Made by a program: the position numbers and the translations under genes. From positions 1-58,054 of the IMG/VR virus record IMGVR_UViG_3300036851_000122: a stretch of DNA of 58,054 bases. One strand, 5' to 3'. Shown here in pieces: positions 686-16,094 of this stretch (the first letter of the stretch is position 1; every line of letters starts with the position of its first letter). The stretch is from a virus. The notes under the pieces were generated by a model, which worked only from the letters and a program-made list of their open reading frames with translations, was not told the origin of the DNA and did not search any database.

Positions 686-691
686 ATGACA

Positions 692-1230: not shown

Positions 1231-1330
1231 CGTAGGCTGACAAGATGCCAGCCAGCTACTAGCAGATATCCCACCATCGGGCAGGCGGCAAATAGCCTGC
1301 CATTTTGGCAGCCCGTATAAACGCCTAGGC

Positions 1331-1350: not shown

Positions 1351-1448
1351 TGGGAAAAGGTACCTAAGTAGCCACCTAGGCCGGCGAGGGCTACAGCGGG
1401 GCTGCTAGGGGCCTAGGCGGGCAAACCGTGGCAAGGGCTACCCGCCAA

Positions 1449-1478
1449 CGAAAACAGCCAGCGGGTTAGGCTGGCTGT
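1449..1478 (-). terminator. terminator downstream of the CxxC mini-gene
   Basis: A perfect 9-bp inverted repeat (ACAGCCAGC / GCTGGCTGT) with a 7-base loop is followed on the minus strand by a T tract. It lies about 30 bases after the stop of the gene at 1510-1731. Confidence 0.7.
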
Positions 1479-1509
1479 AGGGCGGATCGGTTGTAGGGTA
1501 GGGCTAGGG

Positions 1510-1731: not shown

Positions 1732-2268
1732 TGTCATTCCCCTTGTGTTTTGGTAGCGGCTACCGCAAGCGAAAGCCCGCAGCTAAGCACTACCAATCGG
1801 CTAATGGTAGGGTAAGCAATAGGTGTTGTCAAGCGGGTGGCAACAAAGCCACGCGGGGCTGACGGTCAGTAGGGCAAGCAACACGCCGCACGGGGCTGAG
1901 CACCACGATTAATGCACACCCTCACAGCGGAGGGAAGGCGGTGGATTAGGAAGGATACCCCACTTTGAGGTGCCTGGTGGGAAGGAGCCCTAACCAGGGG
2001 AGGGAAGCATGTAGCAGAACAATACACCAGGGAGGGAATGGCTGATATCCCACCTAGGAGGGGTGCCTCTTGGGAACCCCCACTTTGGAGGGAGGTTACC
2101 CATACTCCCCCATTGTAGGTAAGAGGTCCGCAATAGGAAAAGGAGGTTTTGCTGTACGGGGGATATAGCGTTTTGAATCTGTAAAAAATTCCCCGATTTT
2201 CGAAACGCAAACCCTCGGGGGATTCCCAAAGGGTTTTTGGAGTTTATTAGCAAACTAGGGGCCGGGCC
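1732..2268. other. noncoding region with imperfect GGAGGG hairpin repeats
   Basis: No gene is supported here. Two imperfect direct repeats begin GGAGGGAA at about 1935 and 2031. Each continues through GATA-CCCAC, a GAGG-GTGCCT block and TGGGAA with C runs. They can fold as GAGGG/CCCTC hairpins and resemble the hairpin blocks at 40-150. A TTGGAGTTTATTAGC motif closes the region at 2237-2251. Possible roles are a replication origin, a structured RNA or a leader trap for CsrA. None is shown. Confidence 0.45.
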
Positions 2269-2460
2269 TCAGTGCGTATCAGCCAGGGCAGAAGACTGCG
2301 TGTCACGCTGACCAATACATGACTCCAGTTCTACTATCTTCTTCTCAGCAGCCAAGAGGCGGGCATTCAAGTCCACCACCATCTTGGAGAGGGCCATAAA
2401 CTTGTCAGGCGTCATATCCTCAAAGCTGGCTTCCAGGTCTTTATAAATCTGTTGGTCCAT
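2269..2460 (-). CDS. small coiled-coil hypothetical protein
   Basis: A 63-residue acidic protein whose middle (heptads rich in L, A, K and E) is predicted by eye to be a coiled coil. It is the last gene of the leftward early operon. The start at 2460 has a good GGAGAATTGCA-ATG site, and a longer upstream extension would overlap csrA without a ribosome site. Unknown function. Its position directly after csrA invites a partnership with it, but nothing in the sequence proves that. Confidence 0.6.
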   Translation of the reverse strand: MDQQIYKDLEASFEDMTPDKFMALSKMVVDLNARLLAAEKKIVELESCIGQRDTQSSALADTH

Positions 2461-2510
2461 TGCAATTCTCCGATAGTCATGAAGGTTGGCGAGCAGAAAT
2501 CCACGTGGTG

Positions 2511-2723
2511 TCATGTTTTCAGGTCTGGCAGCCCCTCCGCTGGTGGTGCGTTCCTTCTGCTTTCACGTTGTACAGCCTCCCACACCTCCTGCCTGTGAAT
2601 GGGTACGCTATCGGGGGCTTCGATGCCGAGGCGTACCTTGTTACCACGGATATCAACGATGGTGACGGTTATGTTATCACCGATTTTGATGCTTTCGTCT
2701 CGGTGTCTGCTTAGTACGAGCAT
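2511..2723 (-). CDS. csrA: carbon storage regulator CsrA-like RNA-binding protein
   Basis: A 70-residue protein that follows the CsrA pattern end to end. It has the MLVLSR start, ESIKIGD, a VxLGIEAP-type segment (RLGIEAPDSVPIHRQEVW) and a helical C-terminus with the basic residues used in RNA contact. CsrA dimers bind GGA in mRNA leaders and change translation or stability. The start has an unusually strong AAGGAGGAAAAGA-ATG site. The gene overlaps the upstream hypothetical gene by 47 bases, at the end of the primase operon. Several genes in the window start after ACAAGGA or ACAAGGG, matching the core of the CsrA consensus, so it may regulate its own genome as well as host transcripts (inference). 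Confidence 0.93.
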   Translation of the reverse strand: MLVLSRHRDESIKIGDNITVTIVDIRGNKVRLGIEAPDSVPIHRQEVWEAVQRESRRNAPPAEGLPDLKT

Positions 2724-2973
2724 TCTTTTCCTCCTTACGTTTGAGTTTGATCCACTCGGCCATTTTCAGAATTCTGTCGTCTATGTCCACCCGTTCAGAA
2801 GGGTCCGTAATCTTCTGTGGCTCATAACCCAGTTCAAGAGCTACAAGAACTTCAGACTTTGGGACAACGTCACACGTAATAGAACTCATCCCGTCTGACA
2901 AGTAGGTCTTGTAATTCCTAAGCCTTAGAACGTCTGCCACGTTTGGCTCCTTTAGCAGTAGTAGGTAGTCCAT
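2677..2973 (-). CDS. hypothetical protein between primase-helicase and csrA
   Basis: A 98-residue protein with a charged, basic C-terminal tail. It starts inside the 3' end of the primase-helicase gene (56-base overlap) and its 3' end overlaps csrA, so it is probably translated by coupling. No clear Shine-Dalgarno is seen. No family recognised. Confidence 0.6.
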   Translation of the reverse strand: MDYLLLLKEPNVADVLRLRNYKTYLSDGMSSITCDVVPKSEVLVALELGYEPQKITDPSERVDIDDRILKMAEWIKLKRKEEKNARTKQTPRRKHQNR

Positions 2974-5278
2974 TAGTCAGCCCATACACATTTGCCCAGA
3001 GGGCTGCCATCTGTGGGGAAAGAACCCATCTATGCCGGTCGCGGCCTCTCTGCCCGGAGTTGTTAGGTTCCGTCTGACGTTTGATGATGCCGAACTCTAG
3101 CAAGTCGCCTAGCATTCGACGGGTGGTGGTTTCTGGAGCAGCAATGACCGAACAGAGCTCGCGTTGGTCGAGACCAATGGATAGCGAAGCAAAACCATTG
3201 GTGGCCTTCCCGTCCGCGAAGTGTACGCTTGCTAGTTGGGAGACAATCTCGTACTGGAACCCCATGCTGGTATCGTTGACAATCTTCAATAGCAGTCGAA
3301 CTATCTCATCGTCGTATTCGTCATGTCCAAGGACCAGTGCGAGGAAGAACCCCATCTTTGTCAGCTGGGAACAGATTCGAGTTCCGAACTCAGTTCGAGG
3401 TTTATAGATAGGATCATCGGTTTTTTGGAGTCGTGCTCGCATTTTAGCAACGAACTGACCCATTGCTTCAAGGTGGAGCTCTCGATCACTAGAGAGACGG
3501 GGGATCGGAAACGTCTTGAGGTTTTCCTTGAGATACTTGATGAATCCGTACGTGACTTGTTTGATGAACTCTGGGGCATCGGCTTTGTCCTCATCTGCAA
3601 TAGGTTGGAAACCGTCTAGTAAGGAGGCATAGGTATTCTTGATGGACCGCTTGAGGTACAGCCCATTGTCTGTTTCGTCACGACTGACAATCTCACAGTC
3701 GAGGAACCGCTCGCCTAGGAAAGTGCGATTGAGAGCTCGCAGACTATCTGTGCCACAGAGGATGAATGTCATGCGGATGTTTTCAAAATCGTCCCCTGTT
3801 TTGTTGCGGTACTCAGAGCGGCTGGTGCCGTCGTACAGGTCACGTAGCTCACGGAGGATTTGGTCGCGGTTGGGGCTGTTGCTGAGCGTGTCGGCATCCT
3901 TCATGACAACAGTATGATTGTTATACTTAGGGATAAGACTGGCGGTTTCACCAGAACCGCTGGGGTCCACAAAGCCTGAATGGAATCCAGTAATTACGGA
4001 TTTTGGCATGACCCATTCGCGGGCGGCAGACACAGCTTCAGCGAGGGTGGACTTTAGCGAACCGGGGGGGCCGATTACACGTAGCCAGAGATGGTTGGTC
4101 TTCTCGGCTTCTGTGCTAAGGATTGCTGCCAGCATGATCGCGAGGGTGTCTTTGATGTTTTGGGTAAAGTGATAGACCTTCTCGTAGTCCTGACAGAGCT
4201 CATCGAAGCTAGTGCGTTCAATCGGTTTGACCTTGGGTTCTTCTTGGGCCGCTGCTTTTGTGGGAGAAGTGAAGGAGACTTCCTTGAGCATGGCAAGCAA
4301 ACCGGCAAGGCCAAGCGGGAAACCTCTGGGCACGCCTTTGGCTTCGGCGTCCCGTGGTAAGTGTGTGGTCAGGTGGTCACGCACATCCCAACCGTCGGGC
4401 AGGTCAGGGTTGTGCCCGCCGTCAGTATGCCAATGAAGAGTTCGCAGGCGGATAGGCTGCTTGGCAGATTTGCAGAGCAAACTGCGGATACGTTCCATTC
4501 CATCCCAGCCAGGACGGACGTGCTTGCCACGTACGACCATAAGCTCACCAGCCTTCTCATGATCGGCTGGATAGAGCTTGGGGTGGTCATTATCAAAGAG
4601 GAGATCGACTTCCTTACCGTCGAGGTACTCGAACCATTCAAGCTGGAAGTTGTTGGCACCGGGAGCTGCCAGGATGGCGGTACTGGCATAGAGCACCTTG
4701 GCCGGGTCGCTGGATTTTATTAGCTTACCTTTGCCCGCGTCCCGATGGGTGGTCAAGGCGTCGTACATGGCACACCCGTCCCACAGCCCTTCGTTGACTG
4801 CCAGCTTGCTTTTGGCCGGTTGCCTCCTATATTCTGCAAGGCCAAAGGGGTGAATCTTGCAGGTGGGGGTTCCTCGCAGTGCCCAAATGTCTCCAGCTAC
4901 GTTTACGTAGCGATAGAGATTGGATAGGACACCCTTTGTGTTGTGGGCTGGAACAATCCACTCGTTGGTGATTATGGATTTGGCAAGCTCGAACGTGCGG
5001 AGACTTTCAACAGAGACCCCTTTCCACTGGGCTAGTTTCTCATAATCCTGTTGGGTGGTTTTAGTGAAGCTGGTTTCATGAAGCATTGCCAGGAAGGTGT
5101 ACACGTTTCCCTCGGCCATGCACCGCTGGCACTTCATGCGACCGTCTTCTACTTTGACAAAGAAGTGGTTGTTTTTGAGGCAGAAGGGGCAGGTGCCTAA
5201 GGCCCACTCTTTGTCTTTCCAGTCGAGGGTGATGCCATGGAATTCATACGGGCGGAGTTTTTCAGGTGCTTGCGTCAT
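2918..5278 (-). CDS. DNA primase-helicase
   Basis: A 786-residue replication protein. The N-terminus has a zinc-binding pair, C30-x2-C33 and C50-x2-C53, of the DnaG/gp4 kind. A Toprim-like region follows, with acidic residues in VNEGLWDG (E163) and FDNDH (D229/D231). The C-terminal half is a P-loop ATPase with Walker A GPPGSLKST at about 403-411 and a Walker B-like VVMKDAD near 460. A final winged-helix-like segment (about 720-760) resembles the ends of phage DUF927/primase-helicase proteins. It would open the fork and prime synthesis for the family A polymerase at 13758-16094. Translation is coupled to the preceding gene, whose stop is one base away. A TTTATTAG motif (4710) and two TGTGGGRGAA motifs (3009, 4255) lie inside the reading frame. 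Confidence 0.85.
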   Translation of the reverse strand: MTQAPEKLRPYEFHGITLDWKDKEWALGTCPFCLKNNHFFVKVEDGRMKCQRCMAEGNVYTFLAMLHETSFTKTTQQDYEKLAQWKGVSVESLRTFELAKSIITNEWIVPAHNTKGVLSNLYRYVNVAGDIWALRGTPTCKIHPFGLAEYRRQPAKSKLAVNEGLWDGCAMYDALTTHRDAGKGKLIKSSDPAKVLYASTAILAAPGANNFQLEWFEYLDGKEVDLLFDNDHPKLYPADHEKAGELMVVRGKHVRPGWDGMERIRSLLCKSAKQPIRLRTLHWHTDGGHNPDLPDGWDVRDHLTTHLPRDAEAKGVPRGFPLGLAGLLAMLKEVSFTSPTKAAAQEEPKVKPIERTSFDELCQDYEKVYHFTQNIKDTLAIMLAAILSTEAEKTNHLWLRVIGPPGSLKSTLAEAVSAAREWVMPKSVITGFHSGFVDPSGSGETASLIPKYNNHTVVMKDADTLSNSPNRDQILRELRDLYDGTSRSEYRNKTGDDFENIRMTFILCGTDSLRALNRTFLGERFLDCEIVSRDETDNGLYLKRSIKNTYASLLDGFQPIADEDKADAPEFIKQVTYGFIKYLKENLKTFPIPRLSSDRELHLEAMGQFVAKMRARLQKTDDPIYKPRTEFGTRICSQLTKMGFFLALVLGHDEYDDEIVRLLLKIVNDTSMGFQYEIVSQLASVHFADGKATNGFASLSIGLDQRELCSVIAAPETTTRRMLGDLLEFGIIKRQTEPNNSGQRGRDRHRWVLSPQMAALWANVYGLTNGLPTTAKGAKRGRRSKA

Positions 5279-5513: not shown

Positions 5514-5851
5514 AGTATCTCCATGCCTAGCTCTTTGGTGTGCCGGTAGATAATGTCCCAACCGCTAGAGATACAGTTTTCTCCGACGGCGGGGTGGACA
5601 AGGACCAAGTAGGCCCCTTCCTTGCGTACGATCTCGAGGAACTTGGCTATGTCGGAAAATCGGTAAACGTGGAGACAGTAATACAAAGGTTCCTCCGAGC
5701 ATTGAGGCTGTTTAGCTCCTGCTTGGACCTCAAGCACCTCCGTGTCCTGGGCGAGCAACAAACCGCTAGGGAGTTCTTCAACAGCACCGCGTACAACTTT
5801 GCGAAGTGGTTGGGAAGGAGTAGGATTACAGTAGGGACGTTCAGGCGGCAT
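5507..5851 (-). CDS. hypothetical protein
   Basis: A 114-residue protein with a Pro-rich N-terminus and an alpha/beta-looking second half (a strand ending in YLVLVHP, then a Gly-rich turn). The start at 5851 has AAAGGAACTGCA-ATG and overlaps the end of the HAD gene by 11 bases. The extension to 5905 is rejected because it overlaps the HAD domain and lacks a ribosome site. No family recognised. Confidence 0.6.
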   Translation of the reverse strand: MPPERPYCNPTPSQPLRKVVRGAVEELPSGLLLAQDTEVLEVQAGAKQPQCSEEPLYYCLHVYRFSDIAKFLEIVRKEGAYLVLVHPAVGENCISSGWDIIYRHTKELGMEILY

Positions 5852-6503
5852 TGCAGTTCCTTTCTGCAAAGTACCTCTTGATGAATGCCAGGGGGTTATT
5901 AGCAAACTGATAGTTTACGTTCCAGGGCTGGGGAAACACAAGGGCATTGCCGGGCTTGCTGTAGCGGGCTTGACACTCCATCATCCAGGCGTTGATGTTC
6001 TTTTCGTAATCATCGATGAGCAGAGAGTCTGGAGCAACTAGCCGCCACTTGTTGGCTGGAACGTCCAGACCGGATATGGTTATAAGCTCCAGGTCCTGCA
6101 TACCATACTGGTTTAGTAGATGGCGTGCTCCAGCGTTGGCGTGAGGATGCCAGTCGCTATGAGACAGGATGCATAGATGCTTGCAGTTATCCTTGAGGAA
6201 GCCTACAAGCAGTTGGTTCCAGGTGTAAGGCAGAAGCCGTTTCCAGAACGTTGGGTCTGTCCTGGTGGGCCGCATGAACTCTTCGTTGTCTGGGAAGAGG
6301 TTCTTACCGTTGGAGTTGGATAGGTACTTCTGTAAGGTCTGGCCTACTGGCCAGTTCTTGTAGAGAACGCCGCGACTCAGCATCTCTGGGCCGTTTTGGT
6401 GGATATGCGAAAGGTCCATCCCTTCGCGTTGGTGCATACGTGCTGCTTCCGTATGGAAGTCAAACAGTACGCCGTACAGGTCTAGGAAGATGGTGTGGAA
6501 CAT
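5841..6503 (-). CDS. HAD-superfamily hydrolase
   Basis: A 220-residue protein with the ordered HAD motifs. Motif I is FLDLYGVLFDF at residues 6-16 (nucleophile D8), motif II is the serine in ILSHSD, and motif IV is the acidic pair in LLIDDYEKN. The residue two after the nucleophile is Tyr, not the Asp usual for phosphatases of the deoxyribonucleotidase group. That DxYG form is typical of haloacid-dehalogenase-type members, although some phosphatases also have it. Position among nucleotide-metabolism genes suggests a nucleotide or modified-base substrate (inference). A TTCTGTGGGAGAAAG motif lies in the 36-base gap upstream of its start. Confidence 0.75.
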   Translation of the reverse strand: MFHTIFLDLYGVLFDFHTEAARMHQREGMDLSHIHQNGPEMLSRGVLYKNWPVGQTLQKYLSNSNGKNLFPDNEEFMRPTRTDPTFWKRLLPYTWNQLLVGFLKDNCKHLCILSHSDWHPHANAGARHLLNQYGMQDLELITISGLDVPANKWRLVAPDSLLIDDYEKNINAWMMECQARYSKPGNALVFPQPWNVNYQFANNPLAFIKRYFAERNCNAA

Positions 6504-6539: not shown

Positions 6540-7184
6540 TTACTGACGAGACACACCAAAGAAATCGCAGAGGGCCTGAACGTGAGGGGCGATTCTAACA
6601 CCATCAAGGGTTGCTGCATATCGCATGAAGAACCTAGCAGCATCTTGGGCGTTTCTGAATCGCACCCTTGATTCCTCGGCGTTCCGTTGAGAGCGGAGGC
6701 TAGCTGCTAGGTCATCGCTGTCTATTGCGTCCTTCATTTCCTTCGACATCCGAGCGGCAGGTCTGGCGGCTTCAACCTTAGTGACTATTTCACCGTCTGT
6801 CAGGGGGCGGTTTGGAACTGTACCACCGCGGTCCACCTGCTTGCGGTGTTCAATCTCTGCTTCCACCAATAGCAAGTAGCGGCGGAGATCGCGAAGGGTT
6901 TCCAGAATGGACTCGCTGCCGCCTACGCCGGCTTCAATGCGAGCGAAGATATCGTACTCAGGGATTTCCTTCTGCCACTCTGGTCCAGGTGGGATACGAT
7001 AGGTGGCTTTGGCAGGAACCTTCAGTTGCTCCTCCAGACGGTCCCACTTACGGGCGATGCCTTGGTGGAAGGCTCCTGTACCTCCACGCTTCTTCCAGGA
7101 GGAGCCGTACTCAGCATCCTTCTTGATGAGGGTTTGGATGTCAATGCTGGCGATGGTTTCGAGTGTCAGTTGCAGATTGTTCAT
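6540..7184 (-). CDS. DUF1599 / nucleotide-modification-associated-like helical protein
   Basis: A 214-residue helical protein. The N-terminal third carries a KDAEYGSSWKKRGGTGAF stretch followed by RKWDRLEEQ. This Asp-Tyr-Gly...Trp pattern with a later KWDR is seen in MazG-like/DUF1599 proteins, a group repeatedly found beside DNA base-modification genes in phages. The C-terminal part (about 150-214) is Arg-rich and unassigned. The start overlaps the upstream stop (ATGA). Assignment rests on pattern memory only, and a generic MazG-like helical protein is the alternative. The neighbourhood (ThyA-like, MazG-like and aGPT proteins) supports a role in altered nucleotide pools. Confidence 0.55.
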   Translation of the reverse strand: MNNLQLTLETIASIDIQTLIKKDAEYGSSWKKRGGTGAFHQGIARKWDRLEEQLKVPAKATYRIPPGPEWQKEIPEYDIFARIEAGVGGSESILETLRDLRRYLLLVEAEIEHRKQVDRGGTVPNRPLTDGEIVTKVEAARPAARMSKEMKDAIDSDDLAASLRSQRNAEESRVRFRNAQDAARFFMRYAATLDGVRIAPHVQALCDFFGVSRQ

Positions 7185-7450
7185 TTTCCGTCGTCCTTAC
7201 GCATAGTTTTGTCAACGGGCTTTCCGCATACTGGGCAGAACGAGCCGAACACGGTCTTCTTGCTTCCCTTTAACTTGGGGTTGATTTTGGCTGTTGGCAG
7301 AGGCAGGGCAACGCGGTAGGTGCCGTCCTTGAAGTTTATCACGAGCTCTGTTTCCAGACAGGTGTTGTACTTCGCGAGCTCTTTGTCAATCTGCTGTATG
7401 CACTTGCACCCCTTCTTAGCTGGCTTTCGTACTTTGGGTTTTGTCTTCAT
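7181..7450 (-). CDS. small zinc-ribbon-like protein
   Basis: An 89-residue basic protein with CKC near residue 18 and a late CPVC. Between them is a beta-rich segment (ELVINFKDGTYRVALPL), a plausible zinc ribbon. The start at 7450 (MKTKPK...) sits inside the end of the upstream gene, and the longer 7501 start overlaps further without a ribosome site. It overlaps the next gene by four bases (ATGA). Function unknown. Confidence 0.55.
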   Translation of the reverse strand: MKTKPKVRKPAKKGCKCIQQIDKELAKYNTCLETELVINFKDGTYRVALPLPTAKINPKLKGSKKTVFGSFCPVCGKPVDKTMRKDDGK

Positions 7451-7715
7451 AGTCTTCACGCATGGGACGGGGACGCAGTAAGGTATCTTGGACGTACTCA
7501 AGTTCTCCTGTGCAACTATGGCGGATGAGTGTGAAACGTGTGCAAGCTACAACTCCGGAGACTGTGGGTACTTGGTCCACTATACGACGGATGGGAACCA
7601 GAATGTTGGGCATAGCTGGATCAGACACTAGGACTATTCGTCCCGTCTTGTAGCCACCATCTTTGGCAGACGTCCATTCGACCTCGAGTGCTCTTCGGGC
7701 AGTATCGATCGTCAT
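7416..7715 (-). CDS. hypothetical beta-rich protein
   Basis: A 99-residue protein starting at ATG 7715 within the upstream stop (ATATGA), with GGAGGGCTGAT as ribosome site. The sequence alternates hydrophobic residues, as in a small beta barrel, and ends in a charged tail. No family recognised. Confidence 0.6.
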   Translation of the reverse strand: MTIDTARRALEVEWTSAKDGGYKTGRIVLVSDPAMPNILVPIRRIVDQVPTVSGVVACTRFTLIRHSCTGELEYVQDTLLRPRPMREDYEDKTQSTKAS

Positions 7716-7825
7716 ATCAGCCCTCCAAAGAAGAGAACGAATGCCAGTATAGCCATCAGGATGACCATCAGGCAGCTTTGGAAGCAGAAGTGCAACAGGT
7801 CTTTAATCAGTTCGTAGAGAGGCAT
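7712..7825 (-). CDS. 37-residue membrane microprotein
   Basis: A very short gene with ribosome site AAAGGAACACTA-ATG. It encodes a short amphipathic start and then a single transmembrane helix (LMVILMAILAFVLFFGG) reaching the C-terminus. It overlaps the end of the ThyA-like gene by 23 bases and the next gene by four, so it fits the coupled architecture of the operon. Function unknown; small phage membrane proteins often modulate host functions. Confidence 0.6.
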   Translation of the reverse strand: MPLYELIKDLLHFCFQSCLMVILMAILAFVLFFGGLI

Positions 7826-8942
7826 TAGTGTTCCTTTCCTGCCAGGCATAGGCACGACGTTCAATCCAGGAGCCGCAAGCCATTGACCAATCTGGACTGG
7901 CGATCTCCAAACAGTGAGCGAGAGCACGAGTGTAGTTGCGTGCCTTGTGGTCGTTCCAGGCGAGCAGCATTGGGCGGACGGTGTGCTGGAGAAATTTGTT
8001 GCTGAACTCACTGGAGTAGCAGTTGTACTCCTTAGTGAAGTCTGGTGCATGGAACAAAAAGCCAAGTTCAGTCATGAAATCTTTGCTGTCCTCCGTAAGC
8101 TGAAAGAGGCTTTGAGGACGCAGATGCTGACGGACGTATGGATCAGCAAGTTCACCACTCTTGAGCAGCTTCTCAGGAGACCATTTACCAGACCAGAGAC
8201 CATTGGCTCCTGCATACACATGGAGGTTGTTAGTTATCTGGCTATAGACGTTGGGTTTGAACCCGGTTGCCAGGGACATGTACTCCAGGAGGAAGGAGAA
8301 TGTGACGTAGTTGCTCCCAAGAGCTCCCAGGATCATATCGTTGCTGCGGTTGATAACAGTAAGATCGAGGAAGTCCCCACGTGGGAGGAGCATCACGTCC
8401 AGGTTACAGGGGACGTCTTTGCAAGTGGGAAAATTTTCGACTCTCTTGAGGTCCGTGTGCTCCCACATGCTGAGTACCACACGGCGACAGCTACGGTCTC
8501 TTCTGAGGATGTTGATGGCAGACTCAAGTTGGTGTACCTTCTGCCACCGCTTTCCGTAAGCACCATGCCACGTTATCCCGTCATCGGAGAATTCCCTTAC
8601 CTTGGGAGTAAAGTGCTCGAGGTAGGAAATCTCATCCTTGCCAGCTAGAACCCAGAGGGCCTCAAACAGGTGAAAGAAGGGGTTGGCGTCCCGTTCGTAG
8701 TTGAACAAGCAACGCTCAAGAGGGTTGGTGTAGGTGATGGTTACTGGTTCGTTGATGACCAACACTTCTCCATAGCGGCTGGGGGAATGGGAGATAGGTG
8801 GCTCATAACTCACAGGGAGTTGTTGGCGTTTGTTGAAAGCGTAGGTGTTTGGGTAGATTGCCATTCCCGAGAACCTTCCACTATTGAACCCCTTGCAGAG
8901 TTCAGTAAAGGCGTCGTTGACGTTGCGGTAGTATAGGTGCAT
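7803..8942 (-). CDS. thymidylate synthase-family enzyme, likely dUMP hydroxymethylase
   Basis: A 379-residue ThyA-fold protein. Landmarks are the phosphate-binding SCRRVVLSMW (R153/R154), the catalytic cysteine in DVPCN (C179), RSNDMILG and a retained Asn about N211, and NNLHVYA. The Asn (Asp in dCMP hydroxymethylases) points to dUMP as substrate. The residue after the catalytic Cys is Asn, not the His of ordinary ThyA, and the protein is longer than usual, as in phage enzymes that make 5-hydroxymethyl-dUMP. Proximity to two aGPT/HMUDK-type genes favours hydroxymethylation for thymine hypermodification. A normal thymidylate synthase remains possible. The start at 8942 is chosen for its ACAAAGGAAACAAG-ATG site; an upstream in-frame start at 8972 has none. 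Confidence 0.8.
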   Translation of the reverse strand: MHLYYRNVNDAFTELCKGFNSGRFSGMAIYPNTYAFNKRQQLPVSYEPPISHSPSRYGEVLVINEPVTITYTNPLERCLFNYERDANPFFHLFEALWVLAGKDEISYLEHFTPKVREFSDDGITWHGAYGKRWQKVHQLESAINILRRDRSCRRVVLSMWEHTDLKRVENFPTCKDVPCNLDVMLLPRGDFLDLTVINRSNDMILGALGSNYVTFSFLLEYMSLATGFKPNVYSQITNNLHVYAGANGLWSGKWSPEKLLKSGELADPYVRQHLRPQSLFQLTEDSKDFMTELGFLFHAPDFTKEYNCYSSEFSNKFLQHTVRPMLLAWNDHKARNYTRALAHCLEIASPDWSMACGSWIERRAYAWQERNTNASLRTD

Positions 8943-9231
8943 CTTGTTTCCTTTGTGAACGAAATCTAGCAACAGTTTGGTGACGCTCCTCCTTCAGCAT
9001 CTCTGTGTACCACTCAGCTATACGTACCTCCTGTGGCTTCATGGTTTTTGTGTATGGCATCCATTCCCAGGCAGTGCAGTCGTGGATGTCTGCCTGTTTG
9101 GGCTGCTTGTCCAAAGCCGCCCCAATGAGGCGGGTGGCGTTTATTAGGTTTTGGGTCCATACTTCGGCGGCGTACCCAGCACCAGAGCGGTGGGGGAGGA
9201 ACAGGGCGAATAGGCGGAGGTTAGCGTGTAT
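8902..9231 (-). CDS. hypothetical protein with no conventional start
   Basis: About 109 residues, with protein-like composition from position 9231 onward (aromatic and aliphatic residues, an EWYTEMLKEERHQ helix). Upstream of 9231 the same frame becomes Arg/Ser-rich shadow sequence of the MazG-like gene. No ATG, GTG or TTG lies at the boundary. The best ribosome site, GGGGAAGAAGGGG, precedes an ATA codon at 9231, just before the MazG stop at 9221. Alternatives are a frameshift fusion to the MazG-like protein, or a shorter product from a later ATG. It overlaps the ThyA-like start by 41 bases. Function unknown. Confidence 0.45.
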   Translation of the reverse strand: MHANLRLFALFLPHRSGAGYAAEVWTQNLINATRLIGAALDKQPKQADIHDCTAWEWMPYTKTMKPQEVRIAEWYTEMLKEERHQTVARFRSQRKQDAPILPQRQRRLY

Positions 9232-10084
9232 CCCCTTCTTCCCCGTGGACTTGATCTTCGTACTCTGCCTTCGAGGCTGTTGATTCTCCAAGACGAGTGG
9301 ACTCGTCCTTGATTTCGTTTTCGAGGTCCGTGATGGAGCCAATGCGTGGCTCTTCTTCGATCTGCTCTTCAAGCCTCGCGAGGCTGGCGTTCCAGTTGGC
9401 ACGATTAGTCTCCTGTTCAGATATCCGCATAGCCTCGTTGATGATAGCGTGAATCTTCTCATCTGGGGGCACCCAGCTTGGAGGCTTCCTGGCTTTGCCG
9501 GCTCCATCATAGACGGCGTAGCAGCGAGTGGCTTCAGGCCCAGTCAAGACGAGCGGGGCTCCCTCTGGGGCTACACACTTGGCTGACCAACCTTCCTTAC
9601 GTTTCTCGGTAATGGTCTGACATTCCTCGTATGTCCACAGCTTGGACATGTTGGCGTCCTGGACTGCCTGCCAGACCTTCGCGAGAGGAACGCCATACTC
9701 CAGTGCCCAGCCGATCGCGTAGTAAATCAGATCGACAATAGCATCGGCCATGCCAGCCATGTCCTGTTTCTCGTAGGCTTCGTCGAACTCATCGAGTTCC
9801 TCGTGCAGAACAGCCTTGCGGAATTCCTGGCGATTCTGTGGGGGAAAGGCACAGGTCTTGAGGACAGGGTGATGAAACGCTTTGTGAAACTCGAACACAT
9901 CGCCGAGTAAGTCAGGGACGCAACCGCCAAAGAGGTCGAGCTGCATCTTCTGACTCTGGCGATTGAACTCGTAGGCACTTTTGGTGCCGAACATTTGCTC
10001 CGTGATCTCCTTGGCGATCTGCCGCTCGCCAATTTGGTTAGGTTCTGGGTAACGATTGCCATCGAGGACGTTTGGATCAGCCAT
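9221..10084 (-). CDS. MazG-like all-alpha NTP pyrophosphohydrolase
   Basis: A 287-residue protein whose middle third has the MazG/HisE-type helical core: EEL-DEFDEAYEKQD then DAIVDLIYYAIGWALEYG, with the paired acidic residues (E, E, D and D) that bind Mg2+ for NTP to NMP plus PPi hydrolysis. The C-terminal third is acidic and probably extended. Beside a ThyA-like hydroxymethylase it may remove dTTP or dUTP so that modified nucleotides are incorporated. That role is known for other modified-DNA phages and inferred here. The start at 10084 (MADPNV...) follows GGGAGACACCACTC-ATG; the longer frame to 10255 is shadow of the gene upstream. Confidence 0.7.
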   Translation of the reverse strand: MADPNVLDGNRYPEPNQIGERQIAKEITEQMFGTKSAYEFNRQSQKMQLDLFGGCVPDLLGDVFEFHKAFHHPVLKTCAFPPQNRQEFRKAVLHEELDEFDEAYEKQDMAGMADAIVDLIYYAIGWALEYGVPLAKVWQAVQDANMSKLWTYEECQTITEKRKEGWSAKCVAPEGAPLVLTGPEATRCYAVYDGAGKARKPPSWVPPDEKIHAIINEAMRISEQETNRANWNASLARLEEQIEEEPRIGSITDLENEIKDESTRLGESTASKAEYEDQVHGEEGDTR

Positions 10085-10115
10085 GAGTGGTGTCTCCCAA
10101 ATGTGGTTGAGGAAC

Positions 10116-10409
10116 TTACGCTTGTGAAGTGCGGTCGTGTCCGAAACACTTCTTGTAGATGCAGACAACAGCCTCTTCGATCTGCTCCTTTGCTTTGAGG
10201 GCTTCTGCTGTCCATTCATAAAAGATCTCCGGAGGACGTTCTCCTGTTGGATCAATGTGTACGGAGAACTTGAGGTTGTCCATTATTCGCCCGAGCAGAT
10301 CGAATAGTGGCTTAGTAGCACGTTGGTAGTCGTGTAACTGACGAATGGTGGGTCTTTCAAACCCCCTTATACTTCCGTTTGCTCTGCTTGGGGTTGGCTC
10401 CTGGTTCAT
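10116..10409 (-). CDS. hypothetical helical protein
   Basis: A 97-residue protein with GGAGGAAGATT-ATG at 10409, overlapping the end of the aGPT-type gene by 53 bases. It is mainly helical with a charged central segment (about residues 20-80), a conserved-looking HIDPTGERPPE turn and a Cys near the C-terminus. No family recognised. Confidence 0.6.
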   Translation of the reverse strand: MNQEPTPSRANGSIRGFERPTIRQLHDYQRATKPLFDLLGRIMDNLKFSVHIDPTGERPPEIFYEWTAEALKAKEQIEEAVVCIYKKCFGHDRTSQA

Positions 10410-11682
10410 AATCTTCCTCCGCGATAGGATAGGCAACACGCATGTACTTGTCAAACTCACATAGTGAAGATTCTACCTCGCGGAGCTCAAATAGGGGAAC
10501 GGCTGGTTTGGCTCCTGGGTAGAAAGGTAGTGGCTTGATGAGCGATTCAAGAGCTCCTCCCTTCTTGAGTTCTGGCTGACACAGGTTGAACAGTTGCTTC
10601 ATCTCCGACAACCAGTTGTAGCTTTCCTTCTGAAAGTACATAGGGCGACCGAACAGTCGATTGAGACCACGCATGGCTCCAGGCCCGGCATTGGCCCATT
10701 GGAGAGAATCATCATGCGAAATGGCGTTTGTGAACCTTAAGTCGCAGACAATCTCGTAGGCCAGGAAGCGACCGATAGCCGGGAAGCTCTGCAAGTATCC
10801 CCAAGCCGCTTGCATTTTGCGGATGCCAATATCCTCCACGTCTAACCCCTGAGCTACGTTGTCAATGCAGGTGATGACAGAGTTCAGCTTGTTAGAGCCG
10901 ACTCCGCTGGCAACTACATGAGCTCCAGTGAAGCATTGCTTGTGGTCCTTTAGGAGCTCATAGGCACGCTTGCCGTCCCAGTTGGTGAACAGGGAACCCT
11001 TTAACCAACGAGTAGCAGTCTTGGCATCAGGAACTTGATCACCAAGCTTCCAGTCAGTTTCTGTGTTGCTGCCAGTCAGCAAACTGATCGCCGTAGGTAC
11101 ATGGTTGAACCATCTAAAGATAACGGTGGCCAAAACCACAGCCGGGTTCCTCTGCAATGGGTTGCGGACAAATTCTCGGAACCATGTGGTATTCTTGTCA
11201 AGTTCCCGGAACACGTTACAGAAGAAGTTATCGCGGAGGGTAACGTCCTTTGTCCAGGGCTTAGGAGCACCAGCCATCCGTAGATGTTGCATCTGGTGAC
11301 GTTCGTTCATCCAATAGAAGAACTTGGCCAGTTTGTCTGGGTCTATCTTCTGGTTGGGGTCAGGTTTGAAGTGTCTCCTCTGGCGGGGCTCGCCATTCTG
11401 TGGGGAATGGGAACCGATACGGGTAGTCGTAACAGCCTTGGCGGAAAGGGCACGCTTGGGGAGGGAGATCTCGTCTCCCCATTCGCCGTCGAGAGAGTAC
11501 AAAGGGAAGAAAGTAAAGTCGTAGCGATTCTTGTTTCCTTCCTGGGTAAGAACTTTAGCAGCTAACCCATCGTTGTCCACCACCTCTGTAGGTTGCCAAG
11601 GAGATTCAGGAGACAGGCGATACCAATACCAGCCTGGGCTATTTGGTAGCGTGCGACTTACGACCTGAGTTGCTAGAGGCAT
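10357..11682 (-). CDS. HMUDK-helical / aGPT-pyrophosphorylase-like protein, paralogue 1
   Basis: About 441 residues from the ATG at 11682 (site CGGAGAACAATC). Residues 1-90 form a separate N-terminal domain beginning PGWYWYRLSPESPW. The rest matches the helical domain of phage 5-hydroxymethyl-dU DNA kinases and alpha-glutamyl/putrescinyl-thymine pyrophosphorylases: ER-HQMQHLRMAGAPKPWTKD, CNVFRELDKNTTWFRE, AYEIVCDLRFT, WANAGPGAMRGLNRLFG and a terminal SLCEFDKY. The paralogue at 12779-13768 shares all of these. In thymine-hypermodified phages such enzymes act on hydroxymethyl-dU already in DNA. No P-loop is seen, so a pyrophosphorylase/transferase-like role is favoured over kinase. A further upstream start (11811) lacks support. 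Confidence 0.75.
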   Translation of the reverse strand: MPLATQVVSRTLPNSPGWYWYRLSPESPWQPTEVVDNDGLAAKVLTQEGNKNRYDFTFFPLYSLDGEWGDEISLPKRALSAKAVTTTRIGSHSPQNGEPRQRRHFKPDPNQKIDPDKLAKFFYWMNERHQMQHLRMAGAPKPWTKDVTLRDNFFCNVFRELDKNTTWFREFVRNPLQRNPAVVLATVIFRWFNHVPTAISLLTGSNTETDWKLGDQVPDAKTATRWLKGSLFTNWDGKRAYELLKDHKQCFTGAHVVASGVGSNKLNSVITCIDNVAQGLDVEDIGIRKMQAAWGYLQSFPAIGRFLAYEIVCDLRFTNAISHDDSLQWANAGPGAMRGLNRLFGRPMYFQKESYNWLSEMKQLFNLCQPELKKGGALESLIKPLPFYPGAKPAVPLFELREVESSLCEFDKYMRVAYPIAEEDYEPGANPKQSKRKYKGV

Positions 11683-11896
11683 GATTGTTCTCCGAAGGTA
11701 GAAAGCCAATATGGTAAGGTTCAGTAACATACTCCAACTCTTCTGGATGTAACCACTGCTCGTAGCGAGTAGTTCCATCCCACCAGGAGCATTTGTACTT
11801 GATGCAGTCATCTGAAGAGATCAATACTTCCACGACAATAACGGTAAGGTGGTTTCCAGATTGTATGCGACTGCCCGGACGGTGGACGTTAAGCAT
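11639..11896 (-). CDS. hypothetical protein in the DNA-modification cassette
   Basis: An 85-residue protein translated from ATG 11896 (GAGGTAGTT), overlapping the FkbM stop. It is beta-rich, with an early VIVVEVLI strand and a CSWWDGTTRYEQWLHPEELE motif resembling small SH3-like or translation-modifier folds found in phage YodC-like proteins (weak resemblance). It overlaps paralogue 1 by 44 bases, so it is co-translated with the modification enzymes. Confidence 0.6.
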   Translation of the reverse strand: MLNVHRPGSRIQSGNHLTVIVVEVLISSDDCIKYKCSWWDGTTRYEQWLHPEELEYVTEPYHIGFLPSENNHASSNSGRKSHATK

Positions 11897-11898
11897 AA

Positions 11899-12600
11899 CT
11901 ACCTCATACAAAAGATCAGCCTGTCATAGAAGCCGGGGTACTTGTCACCTTCGTACTTCTGGTCCAGACTGGGGATATAACTGACAGTTCGGAACTGTGA
12001 CCGCAGGAACTTCATGCGACGGCGAAAGTTCTTCATACATGGGTCTTTGGTTAGGTGGTACTCCATGCAGACCTTGCGGGCTGGAGGGCACCACTCATCG
12101 TCTAGCATGAGGAGCTCGCTGCCCTCAATGTCTAACTTGCAGCCGTCCCACTGGTTGTAGCCGCGATCCTTGAACAGTTGGGAAACGTGTATGTTCGGTA
12201 CGATAGCATAGGGGCGGGTGGATTTTATTGCCGTATAACGATAGCGGTCATCAGCACGGGTGCCCTTGTAGAACTGGATAGTGTCTGCTTCGTGAACCGT
12301 CACAGCGGAGTTGTGGGCTGTGAAGCCCTTGAGCCCTTGGAGGTTTTTGCAGAGGATTTCAAAGTTTTCCCCATCTGGTTCGTAGCAGTCAGCAGTAGCA
12401 CCTAGGAAGTGGCAGTAAAGAGCAAACGCCCCAATGTTGGCACCTAGGTCTAACCAGTGTTCGCCTTCTTCTACCTCGAAGCCCAGCATGGCTTTCCGGT
12501 AGCACTGGCCATCTATCACCTCCTTGAGGACGCGTTCGTCGGAGGTGTCTGGGCGGTAGCGGACAGGTCTGTCGCGGATGGTTTGGACGGCTATCATCAT
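11899..12600 (-). CDS. FkbM-family SAM-dependent methyltransferase
   Basis: A 233-residue class I methyltransferase. SAM motif I is WLDLGANIGAF at residues 49-59, followed by an acidic YEPDGEN, and the FkbM hallmark CKLDIEGSELLML lies near residue 155. FkbM enzymes usually O-methylate sugars or small molecules. Lying between two aGPT/HMUDK-type genes, this one may methylate a hypermodified base or its added moiety (inference). An alternative is methylation of a host surface glycan. The start at 12600 follows GAGGAACCAG. A TGGATTTTATTGCC dispersed motif lies inside the frame at 12219. Confidence 0.8.
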   Translation of the reverse strand: MMIAVQTIRDRPVRYRPDTSDERVLKEVIDGQCYRKAMLGFEVEEGEHWLDLGANIGAFALYCHFLGATADCYEPDGENFEILCKNLQGLKGFTAHNSAVTVHEADTIQFYKGTRADDRYRYTAIKSTRPYAIVPNIHVSQLFKDRGYNQWDGCKLDIEGSELLMLDDEWCPPARKVCMEYHLTKDPCMKNFRRRMKFLRSQFRTVSYIPSLDQKYEGDKYPGFYDRLIFCMR

Positions 12601-12779
12601 CTGGTTCCTCTAAATCCTTCGGACCACTCTTTAGCCTGCCAAGGGGCATAGCTCCCCACATAAGGATTCGCCTGTTCATTCTTACCAGAATAGTAAGCCT
12701 CCACTCCCTCATAATATTCCTTCTGCTGGTTGTTAGCCTTTGGGAACAAAATTATCCAGAGTCTAGTAAAGAATTCCAT
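12597..12779 (-). CDS. ribosome-modulation-factor-like small protein
   Basis: A 60-residue protein. Its second half follows the small Rmf/CrpP-type pattern: a Gly-containing EAYYSGKNEQANPY helix-turn, then WQAKEWSEGFRGTR at the end, with the familiar NPY and W...GF spacing. Rmf dimerises stationary-phase ribosomes, while CrpP-like relatives are small proteins of uncertain role. The ATG at 12779 lies within the upstream stop, with GGAGTAAGGTG as site, and the 3' end overlaps the FkbM start. The family link is by motif memory and is tentative. Confidence 0.5.
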   Translation of the reverse strand: MEFFTRLWIILFPKANNQQKEYYEGVEAYYSGKNEQANPYVGSYAPWQAKEWSEGFRGTR

Positions 12780-13768
12780 CACCTTACTCCTTGGTAGTTG
12801 CGTTTGATGTTACCGTCACACAAGCGGGCACGTTCGTACTTATCAAATTCGCAGAGGCTGTGTTCTATCTCCCGCATCTCCAGTACAGGCATCTTGGGGA
12901 TTATGTATGTTTTGCGTGGTGCTTTAACTTGACGCCCACCTATCTTTAGAGAATGTATAATCGGTTCCCCTTCCACCTGCCACTGCTTCGAGGGAAGGTA
13001 ATCCTTGCTAAGCCGCAATAGCTCACGCATCTTTTGGAGGGCACCTGGGAACTTTGGCGTTTCACCGCGAGCGTAGGAGACCATTGGGGTAGGGAACACT
13101 CTGTATAGTCCACGGTTGGCACCTGGGCCGAGGTTAGCCCACGTCAGCTTGTCAGGTGCGTTCTCCAAGATGTGCGTGTAGCGGAGGTCGCATACCACCT
13201 CGTAGGACATGAAAGGTCCCATTTGGGGGTATTGCATAAGCCGACTGGTAGCAACTTCCAGGCTCATTGGGTGAGACTTTGGGTTGTTGTCCACGAGGTC
13301 CAGGTATAACTGCTCGCGGTCCCTCCACACAAGGCTGAGGATATCAACGGCTGCCTCGATCTTGGGCATACCGTTGTAGAGCTTGATGATGTAGGCTCCT
13401 GTGAATACTTGCTTCTTGGCTGCCACCAGCTTGCGGAGTTCCTTCAGACAGACATGAGATTGCCAGGAATTCAGTAGGTTGTACTCCAGCAGCATGTTGC
13501 CGGTGCTAATCAGGTTGAATAGACGGAAGGCCAGGGTGCCAAAGAGGACATTCTTGTGGTCCTTCCACTTGTCGCGGTAGGCTTCACGGAACCAGACTGT
13601 TGTGCGGTCCATCTCCCTGTAGGGGTTGGTGAAGAAGACGGATTGCATGACAGGGTCTTTGCTCCAGGGCTTTGGGCAACCCTGCTGGCGGAGATGGTGG
13701 ATTTGGTAGCGTTCCTGTGTCCAGTAGAAGAAACGCTCTAGGGGGTCTTTGGGGATGCTAGGCAACAT
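12779..13768 (-). CDS. HMUDK-helical / aGPT-pyrophosphorylase-like protein, paralogue 2
   Basis: A 329-residue protein sharing with the 10357-11682 protein FFYWTQERYQIHHLRQ-GCPKPWSKD, TNPYREMDRTTVWFRE, YEVVCDLRYT, WANLGPGANRGLYRVF and SLCEFDKYE. It lacks the extra N-terminal WYWYR domain. The match is to the helical domain common to 5-hmdU DNA kinases and aGPT-pyrophosphorylases. Two divergent paralogues suggest two steps, or two substrates, in one modification pathway. The start at 13768 is preceded by GGAGTTCA and overlaps the polymerase stop by 11 bases. Confidence 0.75.
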   Translation of the reverse strand: MLPSIPKDPLERFFYWTQERYQIHHLRQQGCPKPWSKDPVMQSVFFTNPYREMDRTTVWFREAYRDKWKDHKNVLFGTLAFRLFNLISTGNMLLEYNLLNSWQSHVCLKELRKLVAAKKQVFTGAYIIKLYNGMPKIEAAVDILSLVWRDREQLYLDLVDNNPKSHPMSLEVATSRLMQYPQMGPFMSYEVVCDLRYTHILENAPDKLTWANLGPGANRGLYRVFPTPMVSYARGETPKFPGALQKMRELLRLSKDYLPSKQWQVEGEPIIHSLKIGGRQVKAPRKTYIIPKMPVLEMREIEHSLCEFDKYERARLCDGNIKRNYQGVR

Positions 13769-16094
13769 TGAACTCCACTCCTTCATCAGCCTTCGACCAG
13801 TTCTGGCTATGGCGGCTGATCTCAACTGGGGTAGGGATGCCAATGGCGTCTCCGCTAGAGGCCATAATGCGGCCGATCTCTTCGATCACCTGTTTGTTAC
13901 GCTGGTGCTTGGGGAAATCGAAGTCCAGCTCGTCGTGGATGGTCATGATCATACGGTAGGTAGGTTCCCCTGCCTTGGGGCCTCCCCTACGAATGCGTTC
14001 GTTCAACGTCTTGAGGTACGTGTGGACACGATTTATGGCGAGAACCATGCACCATCCGGCAGTACCCTGGACATAGTAATTGACAGCAACGTGAGGTTCG
14101 GTGGGCGGAACCCAGAGACGGTATCCACCTTCGCACGTGATATAACCGTATGCCTTAGCCTCAGCATCCTTTTTCGCAAGGAAGTAATCGACCCGCGGAA
14201 GGTTTTTGCGGATGGCATCGTATCCTCCTGGACGGTGGTAAGTGCTATCAGCTTTATCACGACCTGCTCCGTACAGCAGAGCGAAGTTTCCGTTCTTGGT
14301 CCACTGGTAGAAAGTGGTCTTGTACTTCTTCTTGAAGAGGTCACCGGCCTTGTGGGTATCTCCACTAGCTTCCTTTCTGCACGCCGCGAACTCTGTGGGG
14401 AAAAGGATCTCAGCAAACACTAAGTGAACCGCGTAGCCGGTCTCGAACGTCTCGATCAGCTTTTGGTCCTCTGCCTTGTAGCTGAAGATTCTCATTTCAA
14501 TGTTGCTGTAGTCGATAGAGAACCACTCCCTGCCGGGCATTGGTCCAAAGATTTCTCGAAGGCTCGGAATCGGGTCATCATCTCGCTTACCGCCCTTTCC
14601 GATGTTCTGAGCATTGGGCTGGGAAGAGGAGAAACGTGTAGTGTCTGTTCCCGTTGGATTAAAAGATGGGTGTAGTAGGAGCCAGCCGGTGCCGTTGGGC
14701 ATTCCCCGAAGGATGTATTCTTCAAGGTAATCTCGGGACTTTTCTCTTCCTCTGAAGGCAAGCAGCTTCCAGATAAACTCATGCTGAAGCGTTCCTTGTA
14801 GCTCGGGGCGAATGAGGAGACTTTCGAGTGTCTTGGCGTCAGTGCTGTAGCCAGTAGCGGTACGCTTCCCAGGGCGTATCTTCCAAGTGCCATAGAGGAG
14901 ACCTTCTAACTGCTTCCAGGAAGCTAGATTGTCTATTTTGGCAACAGGGCGGTGGGCAAACCCCTTCTTGGGTTTGGCACCAGGAGCAGGAGCCTCACGG
15001 GCAATTTCAAAGCAGCGGCTCTCCAGAGTGGCAGCTTCCTTGGCCAGCTTTTTGTCCATTGATGAAAGGCGTTGGCGGCTGGCGGTTACGCCCATATGCT
15101 CCATCTCGTAGATGGCTTCTAGCAAACGACGGCGTTCTTCGTAGAGTGGTAGAAGGCCCTGTTGCTCCAGGGCTTCTAGCTGTAACCACCAGAGACCGTA
15201 GGTACGCTCAGCATCACGGAGGGCGTAGGTTTCCAGAACCGTCCACCAGGGATGGTCTTCTGGGTAGTTGTAGAAACGAGCTACTGCTCGCGGGAGCCAA
15301 GTGTCGAAGACCCACCAGCCAGCTTTGGGAGCCTTACGGGTAGCTGGGAAGTGAGGGTGGCCTCCATCCTGGGCTATGGCCCAACCTAACTTGCGACCGA
15401 TAAGGCGGGCTTCGTTGGTGGCATCCCGTAAGTCTTGTTGGTCGTCGTCACGGATGTTGAGATACTGTAGTCCTAGCTCTTTGAGACCGTGGGACTCGTT
15501 GGAGCAAAGTACATGGCTGGCAATGAGAGTGTCCTGACAGGTGCCTAAGTTAATGCGAGGCAGCCCCAGCATCTCTAGAGCACGAACGTCGAACTTTGTA
15601 TTGTGGAGTATAAAGTGATGTTCGGCTATTAGCTTCTTGAGCTCAGCTTTATCTGCTTTAGGTGGACCGTTTATCCACTTGTTGCAGGACATAAGGGCGT
15701 AGGGATTAGTAGGCAGCCCTTGGGGATTTGCCCAGTAGCCGACTTCTCGTGTCTTGGGGTTTACGTCCCACTGCCAGAAGGTTAGCTCACCTTCCTCGTC
15801 ACAAGTAGATACAAAGAAGGGTTTGCAGCCGTGCCACAAGTCAACGCCAGTGGTTTCAGTGTCGAGGGCAAGCTGCCGAAATAGTTGGCGTTTATTAGTT
15901 AACAGGGGGGCCGGGGCTTTTGTGGGAGAAAGACCAATACCGCCTTTGAGGGGTTTGGCAGTTTTGGGTGTGTGGCTCAGTTCTTTTTGTAGTTGATACA
16001 GCAGCTCCCCAACCCCTTCTGGGGTCAATGGCTTAGGAGCACGCTGGTCATCGGGCTTGGGATAGCGGAGCTTCTGGGCTGGTTTGGTTTTCAT
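13758..16094 (-). CDS. family A DNA polymerase with 3'-5' exonuclease
   Basis: A 778-residue replicative polymerase. The N-terminal exonuclease has LALDTETTG (D78, E80) and HNTKFDVRALE. Polymerase motif A is DYSNIEMR (528-535), motif B is K600 to F604 to YG (WTKNGNFALLYGAG), and motif C is IHDELDFD (H720-E722). The Phe equivalent to E. coli Pol I F762 is kept. The Arg normally four residues before the motif B Lys appears to be Tyr, an unusual change at an incoming-nucleotide contact that could matter for modified dNTPs (inference, needs alignment). A TTGGCGTTTATTAGT motif and two TGTGGGRGAA motifs lie inside the gene. No good Shine-Dalgarno is seen. Confidence 0.95.
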   Translation of the reverse strand: MKTKPAQKLRYPKPDDQRAPKPLTPEGVGELLYQLQKELSHTPKTAKPLKGGIGLSPTKAPAPLLTNKRQLFRQLALDTETTGVDLWHGCKPFFVSTCDEEGELTFWQWDVNPKTREVGYWANPQGLPTNPYALMSCNKWINGPPKADKAELKKLIAEHHFILHNTKFDVRALEMLGLPRINLGTCQDTLIASHVLCSNESHGLKELGLQYLNIRDDDQQDLRDATNEARLIGRKLGWAIAQDGGHPHFPATRKAPKAGWWVFDTWLPRAVARFYNYPEDHPWWTVLETYALRDAERTYGLWWLQLEALEQQGLLPLYEERRRLLEAIYEMEHMGVTASRQRLSSMDKKLAKEAATLESRCFEIAREAPAPGAKPKKGFAHRPVAKIDNLASWKQLEGLLYGTWKIRPGKRTATGYSTDAKTLESLLIRPELQGTLQHEFIWKLLAFRGREKSRDYLEEYILRGMPNGTGWLLLHPSFNPTGTDTTRFSSSQPNAQNIGKGGKRDDDPIPSLREIFGPMPGREWFSIDYSNIEMRIFSYKAEDQKLIETFETGYAVHLVFAEILFPTEFAACRKEASGDTHKAGDLFKKKYKTTFYQWTKNGNFALLYGAGRDKADSTYHRPGGYDAIRKNLPRVDYFLAKKDAEAKAYGYITCEGGYRLWVPPTEPHVAVNYYVQGTAGWCMVLAINRVHTYLKTLNERIRRGGPKAGEPTYRMIMTIHDELDFDFPKHQRNKQVIEEIGRIMASSGDAIGIPTPVEISRHSQNWSKADEGVEFNVA

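Follow-up and report, generated by a model that had tools for sequence, protein, structure and literature searches.

Thymine hypermodification in phages has been described as a route through a 5-hydroxymethyldeoxyuridine (5-hmdU) DNA kinase, to which PMC6449724 attributes a preference for TG and TC sites. In the M6/YuA type (Pseudomonas phage M6, gp51-gp58), a thymidylate synthase (TS)-type dUMP hydroxymethylase and a PF18723 (HMUDK_hel) protein, a family abbreviated here as HEL, lie near a family-A DNA polymerase (PolA), accompanied by the P-loop kinase gp54 (PF18748), the amino-acid:DNA transferase (ADDT) gp51 (PF18724), the pyridoxal-phosphate (PLP) enzyme gp52 and the radical S-adenosylmethionine (SAM) protein gp53. 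The PaMx11/Epa5 type (Bradleyvirinae) has adjoining HEL and TS genes with PolA close by, and Epa5 adds ADDT, an FAD enzyme, a P-loop kinase and a small open reading frame (ORF) that we read as acetyltransferase-like. In HTVC023P-type pelagiphages, TS is paired near PolA with aG/PT-PPlase1, which corresponds to HEL, and some of these phages have a putative glucosyltransferase (PMC9599517). For the TAGT of T6-like phages, PMC13390438 considers a role in DNA di-glucosylation likely. Here, we describe a related cassette in the IMG/VR record IMGVR_UViG_3300036851_000122, a linear sequence of 58,054 bp from a virus of bacteria (in its full length, the window), which encodes a TS homologue and two HEL proteins, HEL_A and HEL_B.

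The reading that we prefer, with a probability of roughly 0.55, is that the window carries a 5-hmdU cassette in which two HELs act on the 5-hmdU of the DNA and the kinase/ADDT route plays no part. Its assignment to the thymine-modification type is supported. The sequence shows which genes are present, the families they belong to and the residues they conserve, as well as the likeness of a model to a known fold and the absence of the known partners from the record; the activities and the base are predictions. The window shares with M6 the predicted hydroxymethylase and HEL near PolA, and with Epa5 the HEL-TS pair. In contrast to M6, no counterparts of gp51 to gp54 were found, and two HELs and an FkbM-type methyltransferase are present; the Epa5 extras are likewise lacking. 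The second HEL copy and FkbM, both of which the window has, go unmentioned for the HTVC023P type in the accessible part of PMC9599517. The initial annotation had described a probable thymine hypermodification cassette, and the genes it named were recovered beside the family-A polymerase. Its further point that the gene set is unlike that of the M6/ViI/PaMx11 type also held, as no P-loop kinase, ADDT, PLP, radical-SAM, FAD or GNAT gene is seen. A literature search covering titles and abstract openings returned neither a HEL common to kinase-, glycosyltransferase (GT)- and methyltransferase-type cassettes nor a kinase-free phage with two HELs.

The TS homologue is predicted to be a dUMP hydroxymethylase of the M6/Epa5 type. 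Specifically, when 13 sequences, those of M6 and Epa5 among them, are aligned, Cys179 does not vary and Asn211 hardly varies, in line with the dUMP-type Asn noted at the outset for this ThyA-family enzyme, and the top phage matches (37-39% identical) are annotated as thymidylate synthase or deoxyuridylate hydroxymethyltransferase. By family and conserved residues, the protein thus appears to be what an M6/ViI/PaMx11-type system would have at this position.

To place the two HELs, loci were collected with two HEL queries, one TS query (best 80 of 381 matches kept) and one PolA query in IMG/VR, together with three phage records and the window; the PolA query gave three distant loci, all without HEL. 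Partners were labelled within 8 kb of HEL, and loci were dereplicated at 90% HEL identity. Before dereplication there are 157 HEL loci, duplicates included (L127, for example), with TS in the fetched stretch of 147; the partner is a GT in 84, a kinase in 35, both in 1, a methyltransferase group labelled MT95 in 28 and none in 9. The 112 dereplicated loci comprise 63 with a GT, 30 with a kinase, 1 with both, 12 with an adjoining methyltransferase and 6 with none, and a TS hydroxymethylase homologue lies within 8 kb of HEL in 106 of them. Kinase and GT avoid each other (17.7 joint loci expected, 1 seen; Fisher p 1.1e-13 without correction for relatedness, and 3.4e-6 for dereplication at 50%). 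In L151:11043-13392, the only locus among the 157 with both labels, two TAGTs flank an ORF with a P-loop, whose match to PF18748 is weak (E 0.018). ADDT is present in 17 of the 30 loci with a kinase and absent from the 82 others. The small protein D1599 is present in 27 of 63 GT loci, all 12 MT95 loci, 1 of 30 kinase loci, the single mixed locus and 3 of the 6 without a partner, a distribution that connects the window with the types that lack a kinase.

In a tree of 98 HEL rows, 12 changes are needed for the kinase label, 10 of which are imposed by well supported branches, 19 for the GT label, 13 of them imposed in this way, and 1 for MT95. The variety of partners and the many switches therefore indicate that HEL is the constant element and the group-adding enzyme the exchangeable one. 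Two HELs in one fetched stretch occur only in the window, in L006 (of which L127 is a duplicate) and in L091. HEL_A of the window, HEL_A of L006 and the HEL of L007 cluster together with support 99/92; a larger group (91/91) unites this cluster with both HEL_B proteins, the GT-type loci L009, L089 and L091 and the kinase-type loci L087, L088 and L092.

Two simpler accounts of the survey were considered and set aside. Kinase-less loci are not mere truncations, because many have long flanks (at least 3000 in 79 loci, 50 of them with a GT and 9 with a methyltransferase) and whole-record searches agree. Nor are the six loci without a partner of a single kind: in L011, a kinase match lies at a distance of about 13 kb, L012 has a Zeta-toxin-like P-loop ORF directly upstream, and L018 ends in an ORF read as the end of a glycosyltransferase, without a profile match. 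The remaining three are the window, L006 and L007, of which L007 is a 17-kb fragment that stops in TS. In L018 itself (IMGVR_UViG_3300033143_001775, 120-4031), HEL and TS are accompanied by genes for a PIG-L deacetylase (PF02585, E 1.3e-6) and an APS kinase (PF01583, E 2.7e-12) and by a sulfotransferase-like gene, which perhaps points to a deacetylated, sulfated sugar on DNA. Among cultured phages, Brevibacterium phage LuckyBarnes (L176, MF668275.1) has TS, two TAGT-type glycosyltransferases and HEL, with no kinase match in the whole record, and thereby offers a ready test case for HEL without a kinase.

The two HELs are clear members of their family, with PF18723 scores of 145.3 and 158.6 bits against a curated cut-off of 25, which bears out the original call of HMUDK-helical paralogues. 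They are 34% identical over 330 aligned positions (E 7e-54), and both keep the residues that are invariant across 56 aligned HELs, including the LCEFDKYxR motif; HEL_A has an extra N-terminal region of about 110 residues that is otherwise found only in the L006/L127 copy. The accompanying suggestion of a pyrophosphorylase activity is not supported in that form: PF18723 proteins are kinase companions in the phages studied, and no sign of a pyrophosphorylase role was seen here. An AlphaFold2 model of HEL_B (pLDDT 91.7, pTM 0.88) finds as its top VIA-align match the PaMx11 5-phosphomethyldeoxyuridine glycinyltransferase gp46 (Z 10.7, 222 of 335 residues, root-mean-square deviation (rmsd) 4.1, 9% identity), followed by archaeal and bacterial 8-oxoguanine (OGG-type) glycosylases (Z 9.7-9.1). 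In BFVD, it matches HMUDK-helical proteins and an ADDT-domain protein at E 2.3e-3. The ADDT profile gives two weak matches to HELs (E 3.4e-6 and 1.5e-5, below cut-off), and PDB sequence searches with HEL_A and HEL_B gave no meaningful match. The fold statement, for which VIA-align and BFVD were used, is thus that HEL would adopt the helix-hairpin-helix DNA-glycosylase/ADDT fold over most of its domain, at moderate strength, and that it resembles DNA glycosylases in a way that suggests base flipping and kinship with ADDT. Given that TS is constant, partners vary, the HEL tree shows switches and the fold is near that of the PaMx11 glycinyltransferase, we consider it more probable that HEL is a module for handling 5-hmdU within DNA than that it is "part of a kinase". 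A scan of genome contigs located HEL relatives on nine contigs of bacterial metagenome-assembled genomes (L178-L186). In PMC13092281, aGPT-Pplase is listed among predicted defence domains.

The same fold evidence could be taken further, to a model in which one HEL is itself a transferase of ADDT-related fold that adds a group directly to 5-hmdU without phosphorylation. The glycinyltransferase as closest solved fold, the weak ADDT likeness in profile and BFVD searches, and the upkeep of two diverged copies with all invariant residues, one with its own N-terminal extension, would suit such an enzyme. However, a separate ADDT coexists with HEL in the kinase-type loci counted above, so that HEL is not simply an ADDT, and on chemical grounds a hydroxyl is a poor leaving group unless activated. 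We consider this model doubtful and keep to two HELs that act on 5-hmdU.

The partners that define the known types were looked for across the record. Six-frame searches with PF18748 (5-hmdU DNA kinase) and ADDT gave no match, and phrog_800 matched only a HEL, through the HEL part of the profile (315-490). The glycosyltransferase families PF20691 (TAGT) and PF00534 are without a match in the whole record, as are four custom GT profiles, and Pfam scans of 10 proteins and 56 further window ORFs (the latter at E<=0.01) returned no kinase, PLP, radical-SAM, acetyltransferase or FAD tailoring family. The initial statement that kinase, PLP enzyme and acetyltransferase are lacking is hence borne out. 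Because phrog_800 found distant P-loop kinase matches in phiW-14 and nACB2, where PF18748 failed, it is the better control, and the absence of a kinase rests mainly on phrog_800 and on a scan for GxxxxGK[ST] in window ORFs of at least 60 residues, in which a RecA-like ORF (18294-19229) is the only hit.

A close relative, IMGVR_UViG_3300020156_000032 (57,890 bp; G001 as a genome, L006 as a locus), allows this absence to be viewed in a second genome. It is collinear with the window from terminase to primase, the terminase gene lying 43 bp from the end of one record and 132 bp from that of the other, and shares the two HELs, TS, the MazG-like protein and D1599; the polymerases are 45% identical. 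Family searches of G001 gave no match for kinase, ADDT, TAGT, PF00534 or FkbM, and when 56 ORFs from this genome were scanned against Pfam, the 25 of 41 matches listed included no kinase, ADDT, GT or FkbM family. Since this collinear genome is also without kinase, ADDT and GT, the absence of partners is probably a property of the lineage; neither record is certified complete.

Several points nevertheless weigh against the preferred reading. The partner statistics treat loci as independent although they are related, and the sample is shaped by the chosen queries. An ordinary thymidylate synthase could also carry the dUMP-type Asn. The fold comparison is tempered by a search of the HEL_B model against the PDB with Foldseek alone, which gave no match below E 2.7, and by the fact that a Z of about 10 is moderate for a helical model. 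The closest relative lacks FkbM. Finally, PF18748 is insensitive, having missed phiW-14 and nACB2, and the record is linear with uncertified completeness, so a kinase could be missing. This last point is the main way in which the preferred reading could fail: the phage would then perform ordinary M6-type hypermodification, with kinase and ADDT genes missed or outside the record. In addition to the linearity of the record, L087 and L088 from the same part of the HEL tree carry kinase, ADDT and PLP genes, and the kinase lies far from HEL in G006 and nACB2. Against this stand the collinear G001, of nearly the same length and with terminase at the same end, which has neither gene, and the RecA-like ORF as sole P-loop hit, and we rate a missed kinase as very unlikely.

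Another alternative is that the DNA contains plain 5-hmdU. FkbM would then be unrelated, and the HELs would either protect the DNA or be relics that bind it or select sites. Such phages exist, for instance SP8 (PMC7653180), and no decorating enzyme is common to the window and G001. However, both genomes keep two intact, diverged HELs, which suggests a role beyond 5-hmdU synthesis, and we regard plain 5-hmdU as an unlikely outcome relative to a cassette in which the HELs handle the modified base.

The methyltransferase raises the question of what might be added to that base. FkbM sits between HEL_B and HEL_A, overlaps the upstream 61-residue ORF by 4 nt, scores 30.5 bits against PF05050 (cut-off 22.7) and has an intact SAM motif (LDLGANIG), so that the presence of an FkbM methyltransferase, as first annotated, is upheld. 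One could envision that the HELs present 5-hmdU in the DNA to FkbM, which would O-methylate its hydroxymethyl group to give 5-methoxymethyl-dU. To our knowledge, this is not known as a DNA base in nature. The position between two HELs, the 4-nt overlaps upstream and the intact motifs favour this idea, as does the MT95 methyltransferase (PF13489, E 2.5e-9), which overlaps HEL or sits just upstream of it in 28 loci. None of these loci has a kinase or GT in the fetched stretch; 10 of the records are without TAGT throughout, and 2 records searched in full have no kinase, ADDT or PF00534 match. MT95 loci (L095, for example) resemble the window in HEL, TS, D1599, a SAM methyltransferase and the lack of a kinase or GT, and differ in the PF13489/PF08241 methyltransferase, the single HEL and their separate clade on the HEL tree. 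They are an independent hint that a methyltransferase can partner HEL, though from one clade.

Other observations on FkbM point elsewhere. The collinear G001 has no FkbM; a search of 46 records gave FkbM in 4 of them, close to HEL only in the window and in G011. Around it in G011 (L086:2813-9854) are genes for a UDP-sugar dehydrogenase, an epimerase and a TAGT, another GT-like gene and one more ORF that resembles a methyltransferase, a setting in which methylation of a sugar is more likely. FkbM is 35% identical over 94% to that of Pelagibacter phage HTVC112P. In HTVC112P and in cyanophage MED4-184, the nearest isolate relatives, the stretches of 20 kb that were inspected contain neither HEL nor TS; no FkbM relatives were found in viral contigs, nor in a PDB sequence search. 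Methylation of 5-hmdU by FkbM is thus a tentative proposal that we think improbable. For the same reasons (G001 without FkbM, FkbM near HEL in 1 of 45 other records, isolate relatives not beside HEL or TS), the initial idea that the methyltransferase makes a new base is reduced to a possibility, and an undescribed base in this phage is a hypothesis. Two side observations come from these loci. The FkbM relative of MED4-184 (L171:9318-11442) lies between DNA methylase and queuine tRNA-ribosyltransferase genes, and the TS homologue of L086 (in G011, the L016 locus) has Asp at the dUMP-Asn position and is dCMP-like.

The preferred reading is compatible with a model of five steps. The TS homologue would convert dUMP to 5-hydroxymethyl-dUMP, and the MazG-like protein, the HAD protein and perhaps D1599 would remove competing thymidine nucleotides. 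The phage PolA would subsequently incorporate 5-hmdU instead of T. HEL_A and HEL_B would then bind and probably flip out 5-hmdU, thereby selecting sites for further handling. The hydroxymethyl group might stay free or receive a group from an enzyme other than the known kinase, ADDT or a recognisable glycosyltransferase, FkbM being the sole candidate seen. Possibly the two readers differ in sequence preference. The most specific version, in which HEL is a general 5-hmdU reading and flipping module with swappable partners and two readers here work with FkbM to place 5-methoxymethyl-dU in DNA, we judge to be quite a long shot.

PF18723 takes its name from a kinase, and annotators of phage genomes go by this name. 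Should HEL indeed be a shared 5-hmdU handler, thymine decorated with sugars, methyl or other groups is probably widespread in uncultured phages, many of which would have it behind genes that are currently annotated as kinase or pyrophosphorylase fragments, and a testable answer would be at hand to why only some thymines become modified. The window is the leanest case, having two HELs but no known partner, which makes it useful for the role of HEL itself.

The cassette lies entirely on the minus strand (Table 1), in the order PolA, HEL_B, 61-residue ORF, FkbM, 90-residue ORF, HEL_A, MazG-like, TS, D1599, HAD and primase. The start codons of HEL_A and HEL_B are ATGs picked in the analysis, on which the overlap figures depend; with them, HEL_B overlaps the 3' end of polA by 29 nt. 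The originally given span of 6540-13768 is right but slightly short, as the deoxynucleotidase-like HAD gene also seems to belong to the cassette.

Table 1 Genes of the cassette region in the window and the matches by which they were named
Feature	Position	Strand	Matches and remarks
Family-A DNA polymerase (PolA)	13758..16094	-	PF00476 E 4.2e-41; phrog_17 E 3.7e-80; upstream neighbour of cassette
HEL_B, PF18723 (HMUDK_hel)	12779..13786	-	PF18723 E 2.7e-46; ATG 13786; ORF open to TTG 13843
61-residue ORF	12597..12782	-	overlaps HEL_B and FkbM, 4 nt each
FkbM-type class-I SAM methyltransferase	11899..12600	-	PF05050 E 4.6e-7; phrog_28597 E 1.5e-16
HEL_A, second PF18723 protein	10357..11682	-	PF18723 E 3.2e-42; ATG 11682; ORF open to 11811
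MazG/PRA-PH-type nucleotide pyrophosphohydrolase	9221..10255	-	PF01503 E 4e-14; phrog_671 E 4.8e-28; start uncertain
TS-family enzyme, predicted dUMP hydroxymethylase	7803..8942	-	PF00303 E 5.2e-16; phrog_5131 E 7.1e-79
D1599, conserved small helical protein, possibly MazG-like	6540..7184	-	70 homologous ORFs; weak DCTPP1/MazG fold match
HAD-family protein, deoxynucleotidase-like	5841..6503	-	phrog_420 E 1e-9; phrog_2643 (5'-3' deoxyribonucleotidase) E 3.8e-5

HAD-like genes lie directly upstream of TS in L087 and L088 too, and the L087 copy matches NT5C at E 3e-9. The MazG-like pyrophosphohydrolase was correctly recognised from the start and has a homologue in G001. For D1599, initially called DUF1599-like, the gene is present and conserved among the fetched loci; the protein gave no Pfam match at E<=1, and four of its homologues gave no DUF1599 match at E<=0.5. 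A model of D1599 shows a weak resemblance to the folds of DCTPP1/MazG (Z 6.9 over 87 aligned residues, rmsd 3.6), and phage Pam3 has a homologue with the annotation "nucleotide modification".

By megablast, the cassette region has no match to phages. In the remainder of the record, a Pfam scan of ORFs identified portal, capsid, tape-measure and terminase genes. A phage-encoded CsrA homologue lies at 2511-2723, and its G001 copy is 69% identical. The Pfam scan also includes a uracil-DNA-glycosylase superfamily match that names no ORF and fits best to 21728-22420; the G001 counterpart of this ORF is 36% identical, and such a gene is a curious companion in a predicted 5-hmdU phage.

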